Of a DNA stretch of 59,162 nucleotides, positions 17,525 through 24,851 are shown piece by piece. The DNA lies in contig CABMIB010000105.1 of NCBI GenBank assembly GCA_902386135.1, positions 1-59,162 of the forward strand, read 5' to 3'. A program made the translations under genes and the position numbers. The notes beneath the pieces were generated by a model. That model saw nothing but the letters and a program-made list of their open reading frames with translations, was not told the DNA's origin and ran no database searches. The DNA is from an uncultured archaeon. Its GTDB lineage: Archaea > Halobacteriota > Methanosarcinia > Methanosarcinales > Methanoperedenaceae. Each line of letters begins with the position of its first letter. Position 1 is the stretch's first letter.

Positions 17525-17740
17525 TTATGCAGCATCTTGTTCGGTATCCTCGATAGCTTTGAGTACCTGCCTGACTACCTTTGGGTGTAAAGTCTTTCCA
17601 GAATGAAATGGGACAATGACTCTTCTATCTCCTTTCACATATATCCTGTGACTGCCTTTACTTCTTATCATCTCAAAGCCAGCCTTCAGTAGCATCCTTT
17701 CTGCTTTTTGAGACGTTAATCTTGGTAATTTAGCAGGCAA
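17525..17740 (-). CDS. hicA: HicA-family mRNA interferase toxin
   Basis: 71 residues of the double-stranded RNA-binding-like HicA fold, with KGSHRIYVKG carrying the catalytic His and the C-terminal TLHPKVVRQVLKAI helix. Degrades mRNA when free. It follows hicB on the same strand with a short overlap (about 11 bp), the common hicBA order. Forms a complete module with hicB. Confidence 0.9.
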   Translation of the reverse strand: MPAKLPRLTSQKAERMLLKAGFEMIRSKGSHRIYVKGDRRVIVPFHSGKTLHPKVVRQVLKAIEDTEQDAA

Positions 17741-17957
17741 CCGTTACCTCTACCGAAGTTGTCAGAATTTCCCTGCTTAAATATGCCATCTTTTCATCAT
17801 CTGATAGCGTCTCAAGATAAAGTTCAATAGCTTCTTTTATGTTAGCCATTACTTCATCAAGAGTATCTCCCTGAGTTTGGCATCCTTCGAGTTCAGGGCA
17901 ATAAGCATAATATCCGTATTCATCCTTTTCTATTACAATGCTGACTTTGCAGTTCAT
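17730..17957 (-). CDS. hicB: HicB-family antitoxin
   Basis: 75 residues with the partial RNase H fold of HicB: IEKDEYGYYAYCPELEGCQTQGDTLDEVMANIKEAIELY in parts. An AAGGA ribosome site precedes the ATG closely. No C-terminal HTH or RHH domain is obvious, so autoregulation may depend on the complex or may be lacking. A TATA-like run at about 17979-17990 lies upstream. Neutralises HicA. Confidence 0.9.
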   Translation of the reverse strand: MNCKVSIVIEKDEYGYYAYCPELEGCQTQGDTLDEVMANIKEAIELYLETLSDDEKMAYLSREILTTSVEVTVAC

Positions 17958-18056: not shown

Positions 18057-19214
18057 CTACCCTTTTACCGCCGCCTCTATGCACTCCTCCGTCGTCGCCA
18101 TAATGCTCTTCACCCCACACAGGTTCGGAACATACTTATGCGCCTTTCCCGAGTTCACCATCATGCAGCTAAACCTCTCGCTTGCAGGCGACACAACCAT
18201 GCAGGTATCGCAAAAAACCTTTGCGCCGCTTCTTTCGATTCGCTTTATAAGTTCGGGATGCTTTTTCTTGATTGCGCGCGAGGTGCATATCCATACTTCC
18301 TTTTTAACTTTTTTGCCATCTAAAAGCCGCGCCAGTCTCTCAAGCTCTTCAACGCTGCTGTGAGGGCAACCGAACGCTATTAAATCCGGCTCGCCTGATG
18401 AGTAAACCTCTTTTATCTGCCTCTGCTCGATCGTGATTTTCTCCTCGGGCGGGTCATATTTCCCGGCTTCAGGAGTGATACCGGAAACATGATATAACGC
18501 CACTGCGCCCGAAGCAGCCATTGCAGCCCCCAGTGATTTAAGTTCGTCCTTCGATGGCACGGATTTAAGTTTAAAAAAAGGAACTTTATCTCCCACCATC
18601 TCACCAACGATATAGCCCAGCGCCCCGTAGTCTGAATTGTGAAGATCCGTATCAACCTGGATTAAAATATCGGGTTTTCGGTTCTCATCCAGATGAAACC
18701 CGTAGTTCGGCGTTTTCCCTATCAGTGCAGCCGAAAGAGCGCTCGGCCCCCCTTCCCTGTTCGTTCGCGCCCCGATGACAGAGTTGGCATATGAGATGGC
18801 TGATGATTCGCTCCACGCTATATGGTCACCTAAACTTGCAAGGCTGTCAAAGATGCTGTACGGTGTGCAGGTGCATTCAGTTCTCACGCCGAGCGCCTCA
18901 TATGCCTTGATGATCTTCTGCTGTTTATCCGCAAAATCCTGGCTTACGCCCATCTCTTTCCAGCACTCCCTGTCCATTCCTGCGGGGTTGAGGATGGATG
19001 GTACTGCCACTTTCCCTTTTAAGTCGGATATCCACTCAAGACCAGCATCGCCTATGGTCTTGTACGAAACTCCGGCAATCTGGGCGCTTTTTATGGGAAT
19101 TAGCCTGTCAGCATCGTAAATGTCGCCAAGAGCCGCGAGTATCTCGATAGCTTTCTGGTATGTAGCGCCGCGTTCTCCGTTGAAGAGCTTTTCTTCTTCA
19201 GGCGTGAGATACAT
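18057..19214 (-). CDS. AcnX family: phosphomevalonate dehydratase large subunit
   Basis: 385 residues of the aconitase X large subunit. Conserved blocks include YKTIGDAGLEW, SILNPAGMDRE, CTCTPY with paired Cys for the [Fe-S] cluster, GARTNREGGPSAL, and a C-terminal CDTCMVVSP block. Archaeal AcnX dehydrates 5-phosphomevalonate to trans-anhydromevalonate 5-phosphate, which the UbiD-type enzyme nearby would decarboxylate to isopentenyl phosphate. The small swivel subunit (DUF126) is not in the window. The gene lies co-directional with ubiD and ubiX but is separated from them by the helicase-PLD cassette. Confidence 0.88.
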   Translation of the reverse strand: MYLTPEEEKLFNGERGATYQKAIEILAALGDIYDADRLIPIKSAQIAGVSYKTIGDAGLEWISDLKGKVAVPSILNPAGMDRECWKEMGVSQDFADKQQKIIKAYEALGVRTECTCTPYSIFDSLASLGDHIAWSESSAISYANSVIGARTNREGGPSALSAALIGKTPNYGFHLDENRKPDILIQVDTDLHNSDYGALGYIVGEMVGDKVPFFKLKSVPSKDELKSLGAAMAASGAVALYHVSGITPEAGKYDPPEEKITIEQRQIKEVYSSGEPDLIAFGCPHSSVEELERLARLLDGKKVKKEVWICTSRAIKKKHPELIKRIERSGAKVFCDTCMVVSPASERFSCMMVNSGKAHKYVPNLCGVKSIMATTEECIEAAVKG

Positions 19215-19261
19215 CTATGCCTCCGTGACTGGTGTGCAGTGACAAGTGTAATGTAAAAATT

Positions 19262-19334
19262 TCACCGCAGAGGGCGCAAAGTTCGCAAAGAGCGTTACTG
19301 CCTCGCTTTGCGTTCTCTGCGTTCTTTGCGGTGA
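19262..19334. repeat. 73-bp hairpin repeat, family member A
   Basis: Starts TCACCGCA and ends TGCGGTGA as a perfect 8-bp inverted end, with further matching CGCAAAG/CTTTGCG internally, so it can fold into a long hairpin. A near copy is at 55906-55976. Such palindromic repeats, not coding, are common in many prokaryotic genomes and behave like miniature mobile sequences. It lies between acnX and the remains of hepT. Confidence 0.8.
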
Positions 19335-19347
19335 GCTAATTATTAAT

Positions 19348-19376
19348 CGCAGATGAACGCAGATAAACGCAGATAC
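19348..19376. repeat. CGCAGAT-type short tandem repeat
   Basis: Three tandem units of CGCAGATRAA, one incomplete. A related segment with AGATAAACGCAGAT is at 36566-36598. It abuts the point where the HepT-like frame loses its resemblance, so it probably marks the insertion or deletion boundary. Confidence 0.65.
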
Positions 19377-19469
19377 CCGATTGACAAAAGCCATGTTTTC
19401 TTTATATTTGTCAACTTTACGGATAGATACAAGAATATTGTTAAGATATGCCTCATGCGCTGGCTGCAT
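19377..19469 (-). pseudogene. HepT-like (HEPN, DUF86) toxin, truncated after about 31 codons
   Basis: The frame starts at ATG 19469, overlapping the MntA stop by 17 nt, and reads AHEAYLNNILVSIRKVDKYKENMAF, which fits the first helix of HepT/DUF86 proteins. It then runs into the CGCAGAT repeat and the hairpin repeat and encodes nonsense. The Rx4-6H catalytic motif of HEPN ribonucleases is absent. Identification rests on one helix plus its place behind an MNT gene, so it is moderate. Confidence 0.5.
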
Positions 19470-19755
19470 ATTTTACACTTCCAAGAATATAAGGCTTTAA
19501 ATCCGGTTTAATTGCATTGTACATTACAAGGTCAACTTTACATTTGAAAAGGTCTTCTAAAAAGAATTTAAGATCCATGTAGTTATCGAATGTTGTTTTA
19601 CCTTTTTCAAATTCTACCAATATATCGATGTCGCTTGTGGGTTTTTGTTCGTTTCTGATGTAAGAGCCAAATAATCCGAGTCTCCTTACGCCGTATTTTT
19701 TAATAATATATTTATTTTCTTCAAGCTTGGTTAATATAGCTTTATAGGTCAGCAT
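19453..19755 (-). CDS. MntA-type minimal nucleotidyltransferase (antitoxin-like)
   Basis: 100 residues of the MNT family. The nucleotidyltransferase core is GLFGSYIRNEQKPTSDIDILVEF in parts: GSx(10)D-I-D, with the third Asp in KVDLVMY. In MntA/HepT modules this enzyme AMPylates and inactivates the HEPN toxin. Here the HepT partner that starts in its 3' end is truncated. It sits 21 bp downstream of the PLD gene on the same strand and may be carried with the helicase-PLD unit. Confidence 0.85.
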   Translation of the reverse strand: MLTYKAILTKLEENKYIIKKYGVRRLGLFGSYIRNEQKPTSDIDILVEFEKGKTTFDNYMDLKFFLEDLFKCKVDLVMYNAIKPDLKPYILGSVKYAASA

Positions 19756-19776
19756 TTCAGGGTTCCTTATATACCA

Positions 19777-20412
19777 TTATTCTTTTTTTATTCTTTTTAC
19801 AAATGCTTTAGGATTTTCTTCAAGTACTTTACGAGCCAAAGGATCAAGAATTTCGTGATTTATTTCTGGCAGCTTATCTTGAGAGATAATTTCAACTTCA
19901 TTCAGATTTATTTGTTCTGCTTCTTCCCAATACCTATCCAAAATGTCTTGAAGGTCTGCCATGGAAGATACAGAACCTCGCAAGGTTACCTCAAGGGACT
20001 GCTCTAAGCTATATCTATACCAATTAGTACTGCCCACATAAGCAATATCGTTGTCAACAATAATAACTTTGGCGTGCAATGTTGGTAATGACCGTATTTC
20101 GAAACTGGCTACATGAGAACGTACAGCATTCAATGATGCTAAAGTCGCTATACGAGCCTTTTCATCCTCTGTATCGCCAAAACGAATAAGAAATCTAATC
20201 GAAATGTCCTTCCGCAATAAAGCAATAATCTCTTTGACAAAATAGCCGTCGATCCACGGGCCAATTACAAATAGGCTCTTGCGCGCTTTTTGTATATCGC
20301 CACGTAAATATGCAAGAACCTTACCTGCCCCAATAGCTTTGAAGTTTCCTGATGATGTCGATAACTTGCCCTGCATCATGTGTAGCATCCTCCTGACAGA
20401 GTTGAAGAACAT
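19777..20412 (-). CDS. Phospholipase-D-fold nuclease, single HKD motif
   Basis: Up to 211 residues. One HxKx4D motif is clear: LHAKVIIVD (H113, K115, D120) followed by GSTNW. With a single motif per chain it should work as a dimer, like Nuc-type nucleases and DrmC. The frame overlaps the helicase gene by 56-92 bp depending on which of the clustered ATG codons (20412, 20388, 20379 or 20376) is used, so the two are translated in a linked way. The pairing with a DUF1998-type helicase recalls DrmA/DrmB plus DrmC of DISARM, but no methyltransferase is present. Nuclease activity is inferred. Confidence 0.8.
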   Translation of the reverse strand: MFFNSVRRMLHMMQGKLSTSSGNFKAIGAGKVLAYLRGDIQKARKSLFVIGPWIDGYFVKEIIALLRKDISIRFLIRFGDTEDEKARIATLASLNAVRSHVASFEIRSLPTLHAKVIIVDNDIAYVGSTNWYRYSLEQSLEVTLRGSVSSMADLQDILDRYWEEAEQINLNEVEIISQDKLPEINHEILDPLARKVLEENPKAFVKRIKKE

Positions 20413-22894
20413 AGGACTTGAACTTGGTTTTCATTTTAGGATTTTCGTATTGATTTAAAGCATCCAAACAAGCAGAAAATGCCGAAGACAAACACCCATC
20501 TCTCAATAACACCTCAGACAATCCATTTCCACCTGGAGATGCATCAAGAACCCGCAAATAGCCTTCAGACAGTGAAAGTTTTATTTCAATATTGGATGGA
20601 TTTGCTTGAACCGCATCAGCAAGGTAAGGCACCAGAATATGGCTCACCAAACCCTCAATCTCTTTGAGATATTGTGGCTGAAATCTTTTCAAAGCACTTT
20701 GGCAATTCCATGACCATCCGTAAGTTCTATATGAAAGAGGAAAGAGAAAGGGGAAATCTTCCTTTGCATCTACCGCATTCTTGAACCGTTGGCTTATTTC
20801 TGCCAAGGAGACTTGTTTAGACTTGCGAGTTGAAATGTTAATTTCGTTGTAGCCTGTAAATTTTTTTGAATATTCCCAGATACCGTAGTCTATTTCTCCG
20901 TTAGCGGGGAACTCGACACCTGCTGGTGGGTCAGCAGACATATAAAACTCGAATGATTCTTCTGGAATTCCACGAGTGGTAGTCAGGTCTTTGACTTTTT
21001 CTACATATACAACATCGATGCTTTTGAGATATTTGGCAAGCACTACCTTGCTGTCGGGATGTTCCCATTCAGCCTGTTTCCACTTACCACCATAGAACTT
21101 AACTCTCCATCGGTGTCCCCTTGCATCAAGATATACTGCTTCAGGGTGGGCATCTCGAAAAATGTTGAAGTCTTCTATCCAAGCAACATCATATTTTTCT
21201 TTGCCAATAACTCTAAGAGGAATTTTGCCTTCACTTGCACTTGCTCTGAATCCTTTATGAACCCAATATTTATCCGATAAATCAAGCAAGCCTGAATAGC
21301 GTTTCTCCAACGTATTCTTGATTTCATCCTTATCAAGGAAATTCTCAAAATATTTTTCGAATGTATGACAGTAGTGATTCCAATCTTTTTCTGCATAGTT
21401 TCTATAACAACCCTCATAATGGGCCGCTTCCATGTGGCGCAGGCGGAGCAGCTCAAGGTTCATAGGTATGGGAACGCTCTTGCTCGCATCAAAGCGGAAA
21501 ACAACATCAAGATTCTTGGCAATGTATCTATCAAACGGTGCAGCAGAAAGGTTTAGGAGTACAAGGCCTGGATGGTCTTGTCGCCGTCCAACCCTTCCAA
21601 TCCTTTGAATAAGGTCTACACGTTTCGATGGGATTGTGTTCAGAAGGCATAAATCAAGGTTCTCAATATCTACTCCCAGTTCAATAGCATTGGTTGCAAT
21701 TAAGGTTCCCCCCAGCATCGTTCCTTTGTTGAACTGGGCTTCTATCTGACGGCGCTCGGGCGGAGTAAGATCCGCATCATATATTACAACAGTTCGATTG
21801 TTATCTTTTGTAGACTCCAGCTCTCGATTCAGCATTCGACTCTGGAACTTGCTGTCTGAGAAATAAAGAATATTTATCCGATTACCAATTGTATCAGTAT
21901 CGTTGAGTAGTTCCGTTAAGTCGTGTATTTCCTCTAACGAATCAACGCATATTGCAACTCGTAAAATACCGCCTAACGGAGGGTTTTTAAGTAGAGTTTC
22001 TGCGTCATCAAGCGAAATAATTTTTATTTCAGGATTTATCGCATCTTTTTCATGGTGAATGACTTTTTCATTCAAGGAAAGAAGTTTAGCTGCAAAAGAT
22101 TTTGCATCCGAAAGCGTTGCCGATGCTAGAAACACGTTCGGTATATTTCGCTTTGCAGTTTCTTTGGCGACATAAAGACGTTTTAAAAAATATAACACAT
22201 TGGCTCCAAAAATACCATCATACTGGTGGGCTTCGTCTATCACTATACATTCAAGATTCTTGGTAAACTCTATGTGTGAACCGATGAGACTCCAATGGGC
22301 TTTATCAAGTGTTGCCAAGCGAATACGTGCATTTGAAAATTCAATGGTTCTTTCATGCCGTTGCATAGCGATGTCGAGGGTTTCTCCATGCCCAACTCCT
22401 TTCCAGATAGTCCAATCTATCTCTTGATTTGCCAATTGGAGAGTGCCACTATATGCATTTCCAGATTCATCATCGTAAATTCTAAGACTTGATTTTTTTG
22501 ATATCCGTGCTAATCTATCGGCTTGTCCCCACATTAGGGCTTGGGTCGGAAAACAGAGAAGAGCAGTCGCATTGGTATTTTTCGACAGCCTATCTATGAC
22601 CCATGCCCAAAAGCACAGACTTTTGCCAGAACCTGTTGCACTAGTTAGAATGAAATTTTTAGCTCCTCTTGCATAAGCATCAAACAACCGAAATTGATGA
22701 AGAAACAAACCATCGCTTTCAGCGTGCGGTTCGTACAATTTAATAAATTCAATCGCTTCTTGAGATAGTTTCAATTTTGTCAAACGCTCTGTTTTAGGGA
22801 ATGGTGTGAATATAGAAACTGCCTTATCCAATAGAGATTGACCATACTTGTTACGTATTGCCGTAAGAACTTCTGGCAATGTTAACACATGCAT
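20321..22894 (-). CDS. DEAH-box superfamily 2 helicase with DUF1998-like C-terminus
   Basis: 857 residues. Helicase motifs are in order: Q-like LFLHQ (64-68), motif I ATGSGKS (86-92), motif II DEAH (220-223), motif III SAT (258-260), motif V ATNAIELGVDI (400-410) and motif VI QRIGRVGRR (430-438). The C-terminal region includes DASPGGNGLSE near 795, the core of the DUF1998/MZB domain, but the four zinc cysteines of that domain are not seen. The architecture matches the Hrq1/MrfA/DrmA-B group of repair and phage-defence helicases. It precedes and overlaps a PLD nuclease. Codon and base use is more A+T rich than the neighbouring acnX and ubiD genes, suggesting transfer. Confidence 0.85.
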   Translation of the reverse strand: MHVLTLPEVLTAIRNKYGQSLLDKAVSIFTPFPKTERLTKLKLSQEAIEFIKLYEPHAESDGLFLHQFRLFDAYARGAKNFILTSATGSGKSLCFWAWVIDRLSKNTNATALLCFPTQALMWGQADRLARISKKSSLRIYDDESGNAYSGTLQLANQEIDWTIWKGVGHGETLDIAMQRHERTIEFSNARIRLATLDKAHWSLIGSHIEFTKNLECIVIDEAHQYDGIFGANVLYFLKRLYVAKETAKRNIPNVFLASATLSDAKSFAAKLLSLNEKVIHHEKDAINPEIKIISLDDAETLLKNPPLGGILRVAICVDSLEEIHDLTELLNDTDTIGNRINILYFSDSKFQSRMLNRELESTKDNNRTVVIYDADLTPPERRQIEAQFNKGTMLGGTLIATNAIELGVDIENLDLCLLNTIPSKRVDLIQRIGRVGRRQDHPGLVLLNLSAAPFDRYIAKNLDVVFRFDASKSVPIPMNLELLRLRHMEAAHYEGCYRNYAEKDWNHYCHTFEKYFENFLDKDEIKNTLEKRYSGLLDLSDKYWVHKGFRASASEGKIPLRVIGKEKYDVAWIEDFNIFRDAHPEAVYLDARGHRWRVKFYGGKWKQAEWEHPDSKVVLAKYLKSIDVVYVEKVKDLTTTRGIPEESFEFYMSADPPAGVEFPANGEIDYGIWEYSKKFTGYNEINISTRKSKQVSLAEISQRFKNAVDAKEDFPFLFPLSYRTYGWSWNCQSALKRFQPQYLKEIEGLVSHILVPYLADAVQANPSNIEIKLSLSEGYLRVLDASPGGNGLSEVLLRDGCLSSAFSACLDALNQYENPKMKTKFKSYVLQLCQEDATHDAGQVIDIIRKLQSYWGR

Positions 22895-23034
22895 CTGCTG
22901 AATTGATTTATGTTTCTTTTTATGCGTACTTTATCCCTTTCCAAAAACTCCAATTGTGGCTACTCTTTTATGTAAGATATTACTTTGTATATTTATTCCT
23001 TCATTACTTTTACATATTCCCCCCTCCATGCCCC

Positions 23035-24300
23035 TCATACTTTCGGCCGCTTCACCCTCTCGAATTTCCATTTCTTGCTCAAATCCATCGTTGCATCAAA
23101 ACCGACCTTCGTTCCGATACCGTTCTCAGAACGCGGATCAAGTGTGCTGCCCCTGACATTCGGATAAATGTATATGTCCTCATCTCCCTTCACCCTGGTC
23201 GCTATCGCGAACTCGATATCGTTCGGGTCAAAGATATTGATATCCTCATCCACGACAACCACATGCTTCAGGCTCTTATGGGCGGCGAACGTCGCTTCAA
23301 TGGCTTTCTTTGCATCATCGTCATTGTTCTTATGTATCTGCACAGCGGCATGGAAATAATAACATCCCCCGGGCGTGAGAGCCACGTTCCTGACATCAGC
23401 GACCTTTTTCACTTCGTTATATATCAGCGGCTCGTACGGGACTCCCATTAATATATGGTGCTCACTCCCCGCAGGCATGAGGGCATGATAGATGGGATCG
23501 CGCCTGTGCATCATGTTCGTCAGGTGAATGACAGGCTGTTTTCTTACCAGGTCATATGTGCCGCTGATATCCACGAACGGTCCTTCATCCACAACTTCCG
23601 TGGGATGTATATACCCTTCAAGCACTATCTCGGCATGCGGGACTTTTATGCCGTTCTTGCACTCGAACAGCTCGATAGTTTCGCCTTTTAGCGCAGATGC
23701 GTATTCGAATTCCTTTCCCTCAGGCACGCGTGTTGAGACGGCAAAAAGAGTTACAGGATCTATGCCGATAACGATCGCGACGGGCAGCGGCTCACCCTTT
23801 TCAGCGGCTTTTTTGTGAAGATTATATGTATGCCGAAACTCAACAAGCCGCGCCGCAAGCCTGTCCTTCCCTATTACCCTGAGCCTGTGGATCGAGGCGT
23901 TCATAACTCCCTCGTATTCCGATACAACGACACCTGCGGTGATATACGGGGCGCCGTCGCCTTCAAAATGCGTGAGGATAGGGAGCTTTGAGAGATCGGG
24001 CTTTTCAATAACTTCTTTAGCGGGCGAATCCTCCACGAGCTTTACCTCCCCTTTTGGAGGGCGCGAAGAGAGGTATTTTATTATGCTGTCAGGTGCAACT
24101 CCGAGAGCCTCGCCAAGAAGTTCCTTCGAGGAAAGGATATTCATGATAACCCTGGAGCCGTTCACATTGGTGAATAGTGTTGGCTCGGTCCCGACCGTGG
24201 CTGAGACCCCGTACATGGGCGAGAGAGGTTTTTTGACTTCCCTGAGATTTCCTTCAGCCTTAAGCCGCTCTATAAATTTCCGCAAGCTCATCCCTGCCAC
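23035..24300 (-). CDS. UbiD-family decarboxylase, probable anhydromevalonate phosphate decarboxylase
   Basis: 421 residues, the short archaeal UbiD length. Conserved parts include VVVSEYEGVMNASIHRLRV, EGYIHPTEVVDEGPFVDISG in two pieces, with the E-R-E type catalytic residues, and SEHHILMGVPYEPLI. It would use prenylated FMN from the adjacent UbiX. In archaea with AcnX the UbiD homologue converts trans-anhydromevalonate phosphate to isopentenyl phosphate; that assignment is from context. Its start overlaps the ubiX end by 13 bp. Confidence 0.85.
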   Translation of the reverse strand: MAGMSLRKFIERLKAEGNLREVKKPLSPMYGVSATVGTEPTLFTNVNGSRVIMNILSSKELLGEALGVAPDSIIKYLSSRPPKGEVKLVEDSPAKEVIEKPDLSKLPILTHFEGDGAPYITAGVVVSEYEGVMNASIHRLRVIGKDRLAARLVEFRHTYNLHKKAAEKGEPLPVAIVIGIDPVTLFAVSTRVPEGKEFEYASALKGETIELFECKNGIKVPHAEIVLEGYIHPTEVVDEGPFVDISGTYDLVRKQPVIHLTNMMHRRDPIYHALMPAGSEHHILMGVPYEPLIYNEVKKVADVRNVALTPGGCYYFHAAVQIHKNNDDDAKKAIEATFAAHKSLKHVVVVDEDINIFDPNDIEFAIATRVKGDEDIYIYPNVRGSTLDPRSENGIGTKVGFDATMDLSKKWKFERVKRPKV

Positions 24301-24851
24301 CGCTTGTACAGTTCATGCTCGATGCCCAGAAGGTCAAGGGCACGGCCTGCCATGAAATTAATAATGTCATCAATAGAATCCGGCTTCGGATAGAATGCAG
24401 GGCATGCAGGGAGTATAGAAGCGCCTGCTTTTGCAGCTCTTGCCATATTTTCTATATGGATCAGGTTCAAAGGCGTTTCACGCACCATTAGCACCAGAGG
24501 GCGCTTTTCTTTCAGGCAAACATCCGCTGCCCTTGAGATGAGAGTATCCGACATCCCTACTGCCACAGATGCAAGCGTCTTCATGCTGCACGGCGCAACT
24601 ATCATACCTTTTGATCTGTGCGAGCCGCTTGCAACAGGGGCTGTGAAATCATCATCACTGTACACATGGTCACCCAGCGACTCAACATCGCGGACGGAGT
24701 AATCGGTTTCTATTTTGATCAGCTTTTTTGCAGATTCCGATATAACTAAATGAGTTTCGAACCCTTTCATGTCTTTTAGAGCCTCAAGCAGGCGTATCCC
24801 GTACTGCACGCCCGATGCGCCGCTTATGCCTATAATGATCTCGTTGCTCAT
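24288..24851 (-). CDS. ubiX: UbiX flavin prenyltransferase
   Basis: 187 residues of the UbiX/PAD1 flavoprotein fold. GISGASGVQYGIRLLEAL at the N-terminus and the later VAPCSMKTLASVAVG and LMVRETPLNLIHIENM blocks are diagnostic. It attaches a dimethylallyl group to FMN to make the cofactor of UbiD. It is translated just before and overlapping ubiD. Confidence 0.95.
   Translation of the reverse strand: MSNEIIIGISGASGVQYGIRLLEALKDMKGFETHLVISESAKKLIKIETDYSVRDVESLGDHVYSDDDFTAPVASGSHRSKGMIVAPCSMKTLASVAVGMSDTLISRAADVCLKEKRPLVLMVRETPLNLIHIENMARAAKAGASILPACPAFYPKPDSIDDIINFMAGRALDLLGIEHELYKRWQG

Follow-up and report, generated by a model that had tools for sequence, protein, structure and literature searches.

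Within a 59,162-nucleotide stretch of DNA from an uncultured archaeon of the Methanoperedenaceae (contig CABMIB010000105.1; hereafter the window), two overlapping genes encoding a helicase and a phospholipase D (PLD)-family nuclease interrupt a row of metabolic genes. The arrangement raises the question of whether the pair is a small defence system related to DISARM, a DNA-repair unit, a module of something larger, or two genes that are neighbours by chance.

The helicase, the nuclease and their overlap

The helicase contains Walker A, DEAH, and motif VI sequences, and Pfam returns good scores for DEAD and Helicase_C and no match to the MZB/DUF1998 domain (PF09369) (Table 1). TIGR03817 scores best among NCBIfam models, with 151 bits (cut-off 874); this model describes the MrfA/SftH-type family, and the relatives of that family that have been characterised function in DNA repair. 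PADLOC and NCBIfam models of DrmA, BrxH, DruE, DpdJ, and Cas3 also match, all over the motor only, and the scores of these defence-helicase profiles lie far under curated cut-offs where cut-offs exist. An AlphaFold model of the helicase (pLDDT 82.6, from a 26-row alignment) matches MrfA (PDB 6znp) over its whole length (E 6e-37, 858 aligned columns, TM 0.61/0.69), the next-best chain other than MrfA reaching 5e-15. This full-length match predicts an OB-CON-DUF1998 canopy despite the loss of the zinc cysteines, so that the YprA-superfamily architecture (NTR-RecA1-RecA2-OB-CON-DUF1998) is complete with a DUF1998 fold that lacks zinc. In an alignment of the helicase with its closest relatives, a PGGNGLSE loop is conserved in the DUF1998-like end and the zinc cysteines are absent from every member with an intact C-terminus. 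The original prediction, made from the DNA alone, of a DEAH helicase fused in one 857-residue chain to a DUF1998-like C-terminus without visible zinc cysteines thus agrees with the model, in which the canopy is joined to the motor.

Table 1. Features at the UbiD-AcnX junction, in window coordinates.
Feature	Position	Strand	Description and basis
UbiD-family decarboxylase, left flank	23035..24300	-	Pfam UbiD
YprA/MrfA-family SF2 helicase	20321..22894	-	857 aa; ORF list, Pfam DEAD/Helicase_C, TIGR03817, MrfA 6znp by sequence and fold
Helicase layout			N-terminal region, RecA1, RecA2, helical linker, OB-CON canopy, DUF1998-like end
Gene overlap	20321..20379	-	59 bp, includes helicase stop; sequence
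Single-HKD PLD-family nuclease	19777..20379	-	200 aa from ATG 20379; Pfam PLDc_2, AlphaFold
MNT-type nucleotidyltransferase antitoxin, directly downstream of the pair	19453..19755	-	PADLOC PDC-S09 7.8e-37; NTP_transf_2
5' remnant of HEPN partner	19215..19469	-	No Pfam match; compared with intact HepT in L227, same truncation in L213
AcnX (aconitase X), right flank	18057..19214	-	Pfam AcnX

The second gene was rightly read as a single-HKD PLD nuclease: besides its PLDc_2 match it carries the catalytic motif HAKVIIVD (H102, K104, D109) together with GSTN, and it ends in a tail that alignment shows to be conserved (EILDPLAxKVLxENPKAFV). The best PDB matches of its AlphaFold model (pLDDT 83.1) include the single-HKD nucleases NucT and Nuc, and the model has no N-terminal helical bundle. 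Translation most likely starts at ATG 20379, the best candidate start, which has a Shine-Dalgarno-like AGGAGG 9 nt upstream within the helicase gene; the predicted overlap of at least 56 bp corresponds to the next ATG. The cassette is also A+T-richer than its surroundings, as had been noted, with a GC content of 0.403 against 0.506 and 0.504 in the flanking genes and a GC3 of 0.35 and 0.32 against 0.58 and 0.56, and this low GC3 fits a recent arrival.

Relatives, linkage and descent of the pair

Relatives were sought across GTDB contigs with the motif II pattern H.Y.G[IVM]FGAN, which returned at least 119 loci, and by whole-genome searches. Together these yielded seven helicases 36-56% identical to the window copy, from Bacillota CTSoil_073 (G438, 56%), Methanosaeta PtaU1.Bin112 (Methanothrix; G439, 44%), the archaeon LFW-151_2 (G440, 42%), three Planctomycetota MAGs (G441, G442, and G443, 42-44% over full length), and, added by whole-genome search, a further planctomycete (G463, 36%). 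The next locus among the at least 119 matches listed is at most 29% identical. The clade therefore numbers only eight members, mostly from MAGs, and it is rare in the Planctomycetota and Bacillota genomes searched, the 398 Bacillota genomes holding no relative beyond the known one. Sixty related genomes, including 30 congeners (Ca. Methanoperedens), hold no orthologue and only distant matches of 24-38% identity, and all other matches listed from 393 Halobacteriota genomes are 26-33% identical and mostly MrfA-like with the zinc motif. Exact-peptide scans of genome and viral contigs returned nothing, alignment-based viral scans returned at most one MrfB-MrfA locus, and the phage and plasmid collections contained no close relative.

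A PLD gene of the same family lies directly downstream of the helicase, overlapping it, in six of the eight members, archaeal and bacterial alike (the window, G438, G439, G440, G442, and G443). Thus the possibility that homologues elsewhere would stand apart from PLD genes, which had been named as grounds for rejecting a two-gene unit, did not materialise. In all six pairs the overlap is 38 or 59 bp long and the two reading frames stand in the same relation to each other, and the other five helicases are 42-56% identical to that of the window. Recurrence of pair and overlap in five other genomes at this distance argues that the pairing is more than chance. Helicase and PLD identities are also correlated (Pearson r 0.72, a value reached by 2 of 720 relabelings), and among the at least 119 YprA-type loci listed, which were fetched regardless of PLD, the PLD motif occurs beside clade members and at one other locus only (L160, described below).

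The remaining members are less regular. In G441 an in-frame TGA interrupts the helicase within its PGGNGLSE loop and no PLD gene follows, and no PLD gene was found beside the helicase of G463. In G442, whose helicase is short of about 50 N-terminal residues, in frame, the PLD protein (L178:12027-12647) keeps its length and conserved tail and has lost the HKD (HxK) catalytic residues, for which reason it is a decaying or non-catalytic version. The absent PLD of G463 and the catalytically dead one of G442 would suit two genes that are neighbours by chance, or are coupled by translation only, and have separate functions. We consider this highly improbable given an overlap and gene order conserved across domains, the correlated divergence, and the restriction of this PLD family to the clade among the loci listed.

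The exception, L160, belongs to a separate pair in a genome of the same genus as the window (G025; also L003, 86-3477), formed by an MrfA-like helicase and a PLD gene that overlap by 4 bp. It resembles the window pair in its gene order, small overlap, and low-GC3 genes, but its helicase shares only about 28% identity, retains the MZB zinc domain, and falls on another branch of the helicase tree, and its PLD protein is not matched by the clade's own PLD profile. With this pair on a different branch, helicase and PLD genes appear to have become paired on more than one occasion.

The tree was built by a quick method, has long branches, and includes no DISARM reference, since searches for DrmA in Planctomycetota, Bacillota, and Halobacteriota, intended to root it and run without a positive control, gave nothing. 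In it a single clade (SH-aLRT 100), set off by a branch of 2.7 changes per column, unites all eight helicases; it falls outside a group (support 97) of MrfA-like proteins and L003 and is separate from the branch of the DpdJ-like L043 and L044. The window copy has its partner in the copy from the Bacillota genome (support 100), not in that of Methanothrix, a placement that indicates transfer between domains. A vertically inherited archaeal repair gene with constant neighbours, the other outcome that had been named as fatal to the proposal, does not describe a gene that is absent from 30 congeners and so patchily distributed.

An insertion hotspot in a mevalonate operon

The cassette had been placed within a metabolic gene row, and its flanks are indeed UbiX-UbiD and AcnX, known members of the archaeal modified mevalonate pathway. 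The UbiD and AcnX genes lie side by side in two congeners (G015 and G001) as well as in several outgroup genera, and in G015 the UbiD stop codon TAG abuts the AcnX ATG exactly at the cassette's place. The same gap holds the cassette, the MNT gene, and the HEPN remnant in the window, and varied cargo lies in it, or just after UbiD, in other congeners: PIN-like and HNH genes with MNT (G006), a DUF1016 nuclease with MNT/HEPN-type genes (G016), a HicB-type antitoxin (G014 and G009), and MNT-HepT (G004), while G017 has UbiA and FIST genes instead. Taken together, the empty gap and the varied cargo identify the UbiD-AcnX junction (window 18057-24851; L212-L227) as a hotspot for insertions in Ca. Methanoperedens, whose cargo is mostly of defence or toxin-antitoxin type. 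No target-site duplication or integrase was seen at the insertion.

The MNT gene next to the pair has copies 82-88% identical at the same or a nearby place in congeners, and it is probably a hotspot resident and not part of the cassette. Its HEPN partner is cut after about 30 codons by a repeat-like sequence (CGCAAAGAACGCAGAGAACGC...) in both the window and G006 (L213 and L212 examined), with the MNT antitoxin gene kept beside the cut gene in both; G008 has a similar repeat without MNT.

Defence, repair or a module of a larger system

The YprA family has been divided into two branches, one of repair and one of defence systems, the latter comprising DISARM, Dpd, Druantia, ARMADA, BRIGADE, and TALON, as set out in the main text of Bell et al. 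(2025; PMC12458937). According to the same text, and to PMC9142583, the core of both DISARM and Dpd is a YprA helicase with a PLD nuclease. The plan of DISARM (DrmA helicase, DrmB DUF1998 protein, DrmC PLD) recurs here in a YprA-type motor, a canopy of DUF1998 type, and a PLD gene at the end of the row, but the window pair combines motor and canopy in one 857-aa chain, has lost the zinc cluster, and has no methyltransferase. The DrmA models score 27.4 bits (NF038325, cut-off 950) and 65.9 bits (PADLOC, residues 216-464 only), no separate DUF1998 ORF corresponding to DrmB lies beside the pair, and the DrmC model (NF038319) scores 26.2 bits against a cut-off of 133, over the HKD/PLD core only, with the N-terminal helical bundle missing. 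DrmC itself is dispensable in DISARM and does not co-purify with DrmAB (PMC9142583). The predicted lack of a methyltransferase holds among the characterised neighbours (14.0 to 28.7 kb), none of which is DrmMI or DrmMII, and none of the class 1 SNF2 helicase DrmD lies beside the window pair.

DrmD does occur beside two of the seven relatives, a further point shared with DISARM. In G438 the C-terminal two thirds of the gene, in two frames, lie just upstream of the pair (1e-123 and 2.5e-73), with a Tiamat/Mokosh-like large protein and an ADP-ribosylglycohydrolase farther upstream, and in G463 the DrmD N-terminus lies just downstream of the helicase (7.8e-46). These neighbours would be expected if the pair had belonged as a module to a larger DISARM-like system, working together with DrmD and perhaps a methyltransferase, the two-gene form being a remnant or using partners elsewhere in the genome. 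But both are gene fragments, no DrmD appears in the stretches read around the other six loci, no methyltransferase was seen beside any pair, and the window pair has kept its catalytic motifs; we judge this reading improbable and rank it after repair. Plasmid matches to the DrmD piece belonged mostly to other systems, built on DUF1156/DUF499 genes. Elsewhere an MNT-HepT pair lies upstream in G440, a weak match to a phage-type replication protein lies near the pair in G443, and no recognised defence neighbour was found in the stretches read of G439, G441, G442, and G443. Directly downstream of the pair in G438 is a 1957-aa protein (L174:1325-7195) with a weak AAA match and no PADLOC match.

Dpd (DpdJ helicase, DpdK PLD) and BRIGADE share with the pair an unsplit YprA-family helicase and a separate PLD protein without a 4-helix bundle, and canonical Dpd has likewise lost the DUF1998 cysteines, as the main text of PMC12458937 describes. 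Their helicases, however, are roughly 1480 aa long against about 860 here. Identification of the helicase as DpdJ was rejected on the basis of its score (37-41 bits with the DpdJ model, 36.8 bits in the NF041067 comparison, cut-off 800) and its separate tree branch, and the genes neighbouring the window pair include none for 7-deazaguanine DNA modification. As for Druantia, ARMADA, and TALON, with their BrxA-like insert, zinc modules, and large helicases, DruE models match the motor only, and an 857-aa helicase set against the 748 aa of MrfA over one alignment leaves little room for insert domains. By the features tested, the pair resembles DISARM and Dpd in plan and is a member of neither.

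The main rival is a DNA-repair pair analogous to MrfAB (YprA/YprB), in which the helicase would open damaged DNA and the PLD protein would trim it in MrfB's place. The two systems share a helicase fold from end to end and a two-gene helicase-nuclease design, and the leading rank of TIGR03817 and the lack of inserts typical of Druantia/ARMADA helicases also speak for repair. We nevertheless regard it as unlikely. The pair lacks the PF09369 match and the zinc cysteines, has a PLD-family protein where MrfAB has the MrfB/YprB exonuclease, and forms a long-branch clade outside the repair crown; it is absent from congeners, very patchy, crosses domains, and sits in a hotspot with defence and toxin-antitoxin cargo.

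We favour, with a probability of roughly 0.6, a mobile two-gene defence cassette of YprA helicase and PLD nuclease with presumed antiviral activity, on the grounds of the conserved linkage and overlap, the patchy cross-domain spread, the defence/toxin-antitoxin hotspot, and the DrmD fragments beside two relatives. The cassette is best read as amounting to a two-gene relative of the DISARM/Dpd scheme. Of the original alternatives, a minimal DISARM-like or DNA-repair system, the linked and probably defensive two-gene unit stands; DISARM membership fails on the profiles, the absent DrmB, the absent methyltransferase, and the missing helical bundle of the PLD protein, and repair is less likely. 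In the mechanism we envisage, the helicase, as a compact translocase, would sense free 3' ends or single-stranded regions in invading DNA, load there, and move along the molecule. Translated together with it, the PLD protein, probably a dimer like Nuc/NucT, would serve as its nuclease, likely held through the conserved PLD tail, the rebuilt zinc-free helicase C-terminus, or both, and when activated would cut the DNA opened by the helicase. Hachiman (HamA nuclease, HamB helicase) provides a precedent for a two-gene defence pair whose helicase controls its nuclease (PMC12278908). This likeness is one of working and implies no common descent: the nuclease matches PLD families only, with no HamA model among its matches.

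Several observations count against the defence reading. First, the clade has only eight members, and four of their loci lack a recognised defence neighbour. Second, the DrmD neighbours are fragmentary. Finally, one linked PLD protein has no HKD motif, and the motor is nearest to TIGR03817 by profile.

If the pair is defensive, two genes of about 3.1 kb would hold the helicase and nuclease of a DISARM/Dpd-like machine without base modification. We tentatively suggest, at a little under even odds, that the clade represents a class of YprA-family immune systems that has yet to be named and stands beside DISARM, Dpd, Druantia, ARMADA, BRIGADE, and TALON as a sibling. It would be the smallest form among them, consisting of two overlapping genes that move between archaea and bacteria and include neither a methyltransferase nor zinc modules. 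The main text of PMC12458937 names no two-gene YprA and PLD class, although the clade may sit unnamed in its data.

The UbiD-AcnX gap is in turn a place to seek new defence genes in Ca. Methanoperedens. The cargo of G011 (L222:1430-5522), a row of a DUF6884 gene, a GajB-like UvrD helicase, and a PD-(D/E)xK nuclease, with MNT, is possibly another helicase-nuclease defence unit. Just beyond AcnX, the window also carries HicA-HicB toxin-antitoxin genes (17525-17957), and a HicB of about 91% identity sits within the gap itself in G014 and G009.
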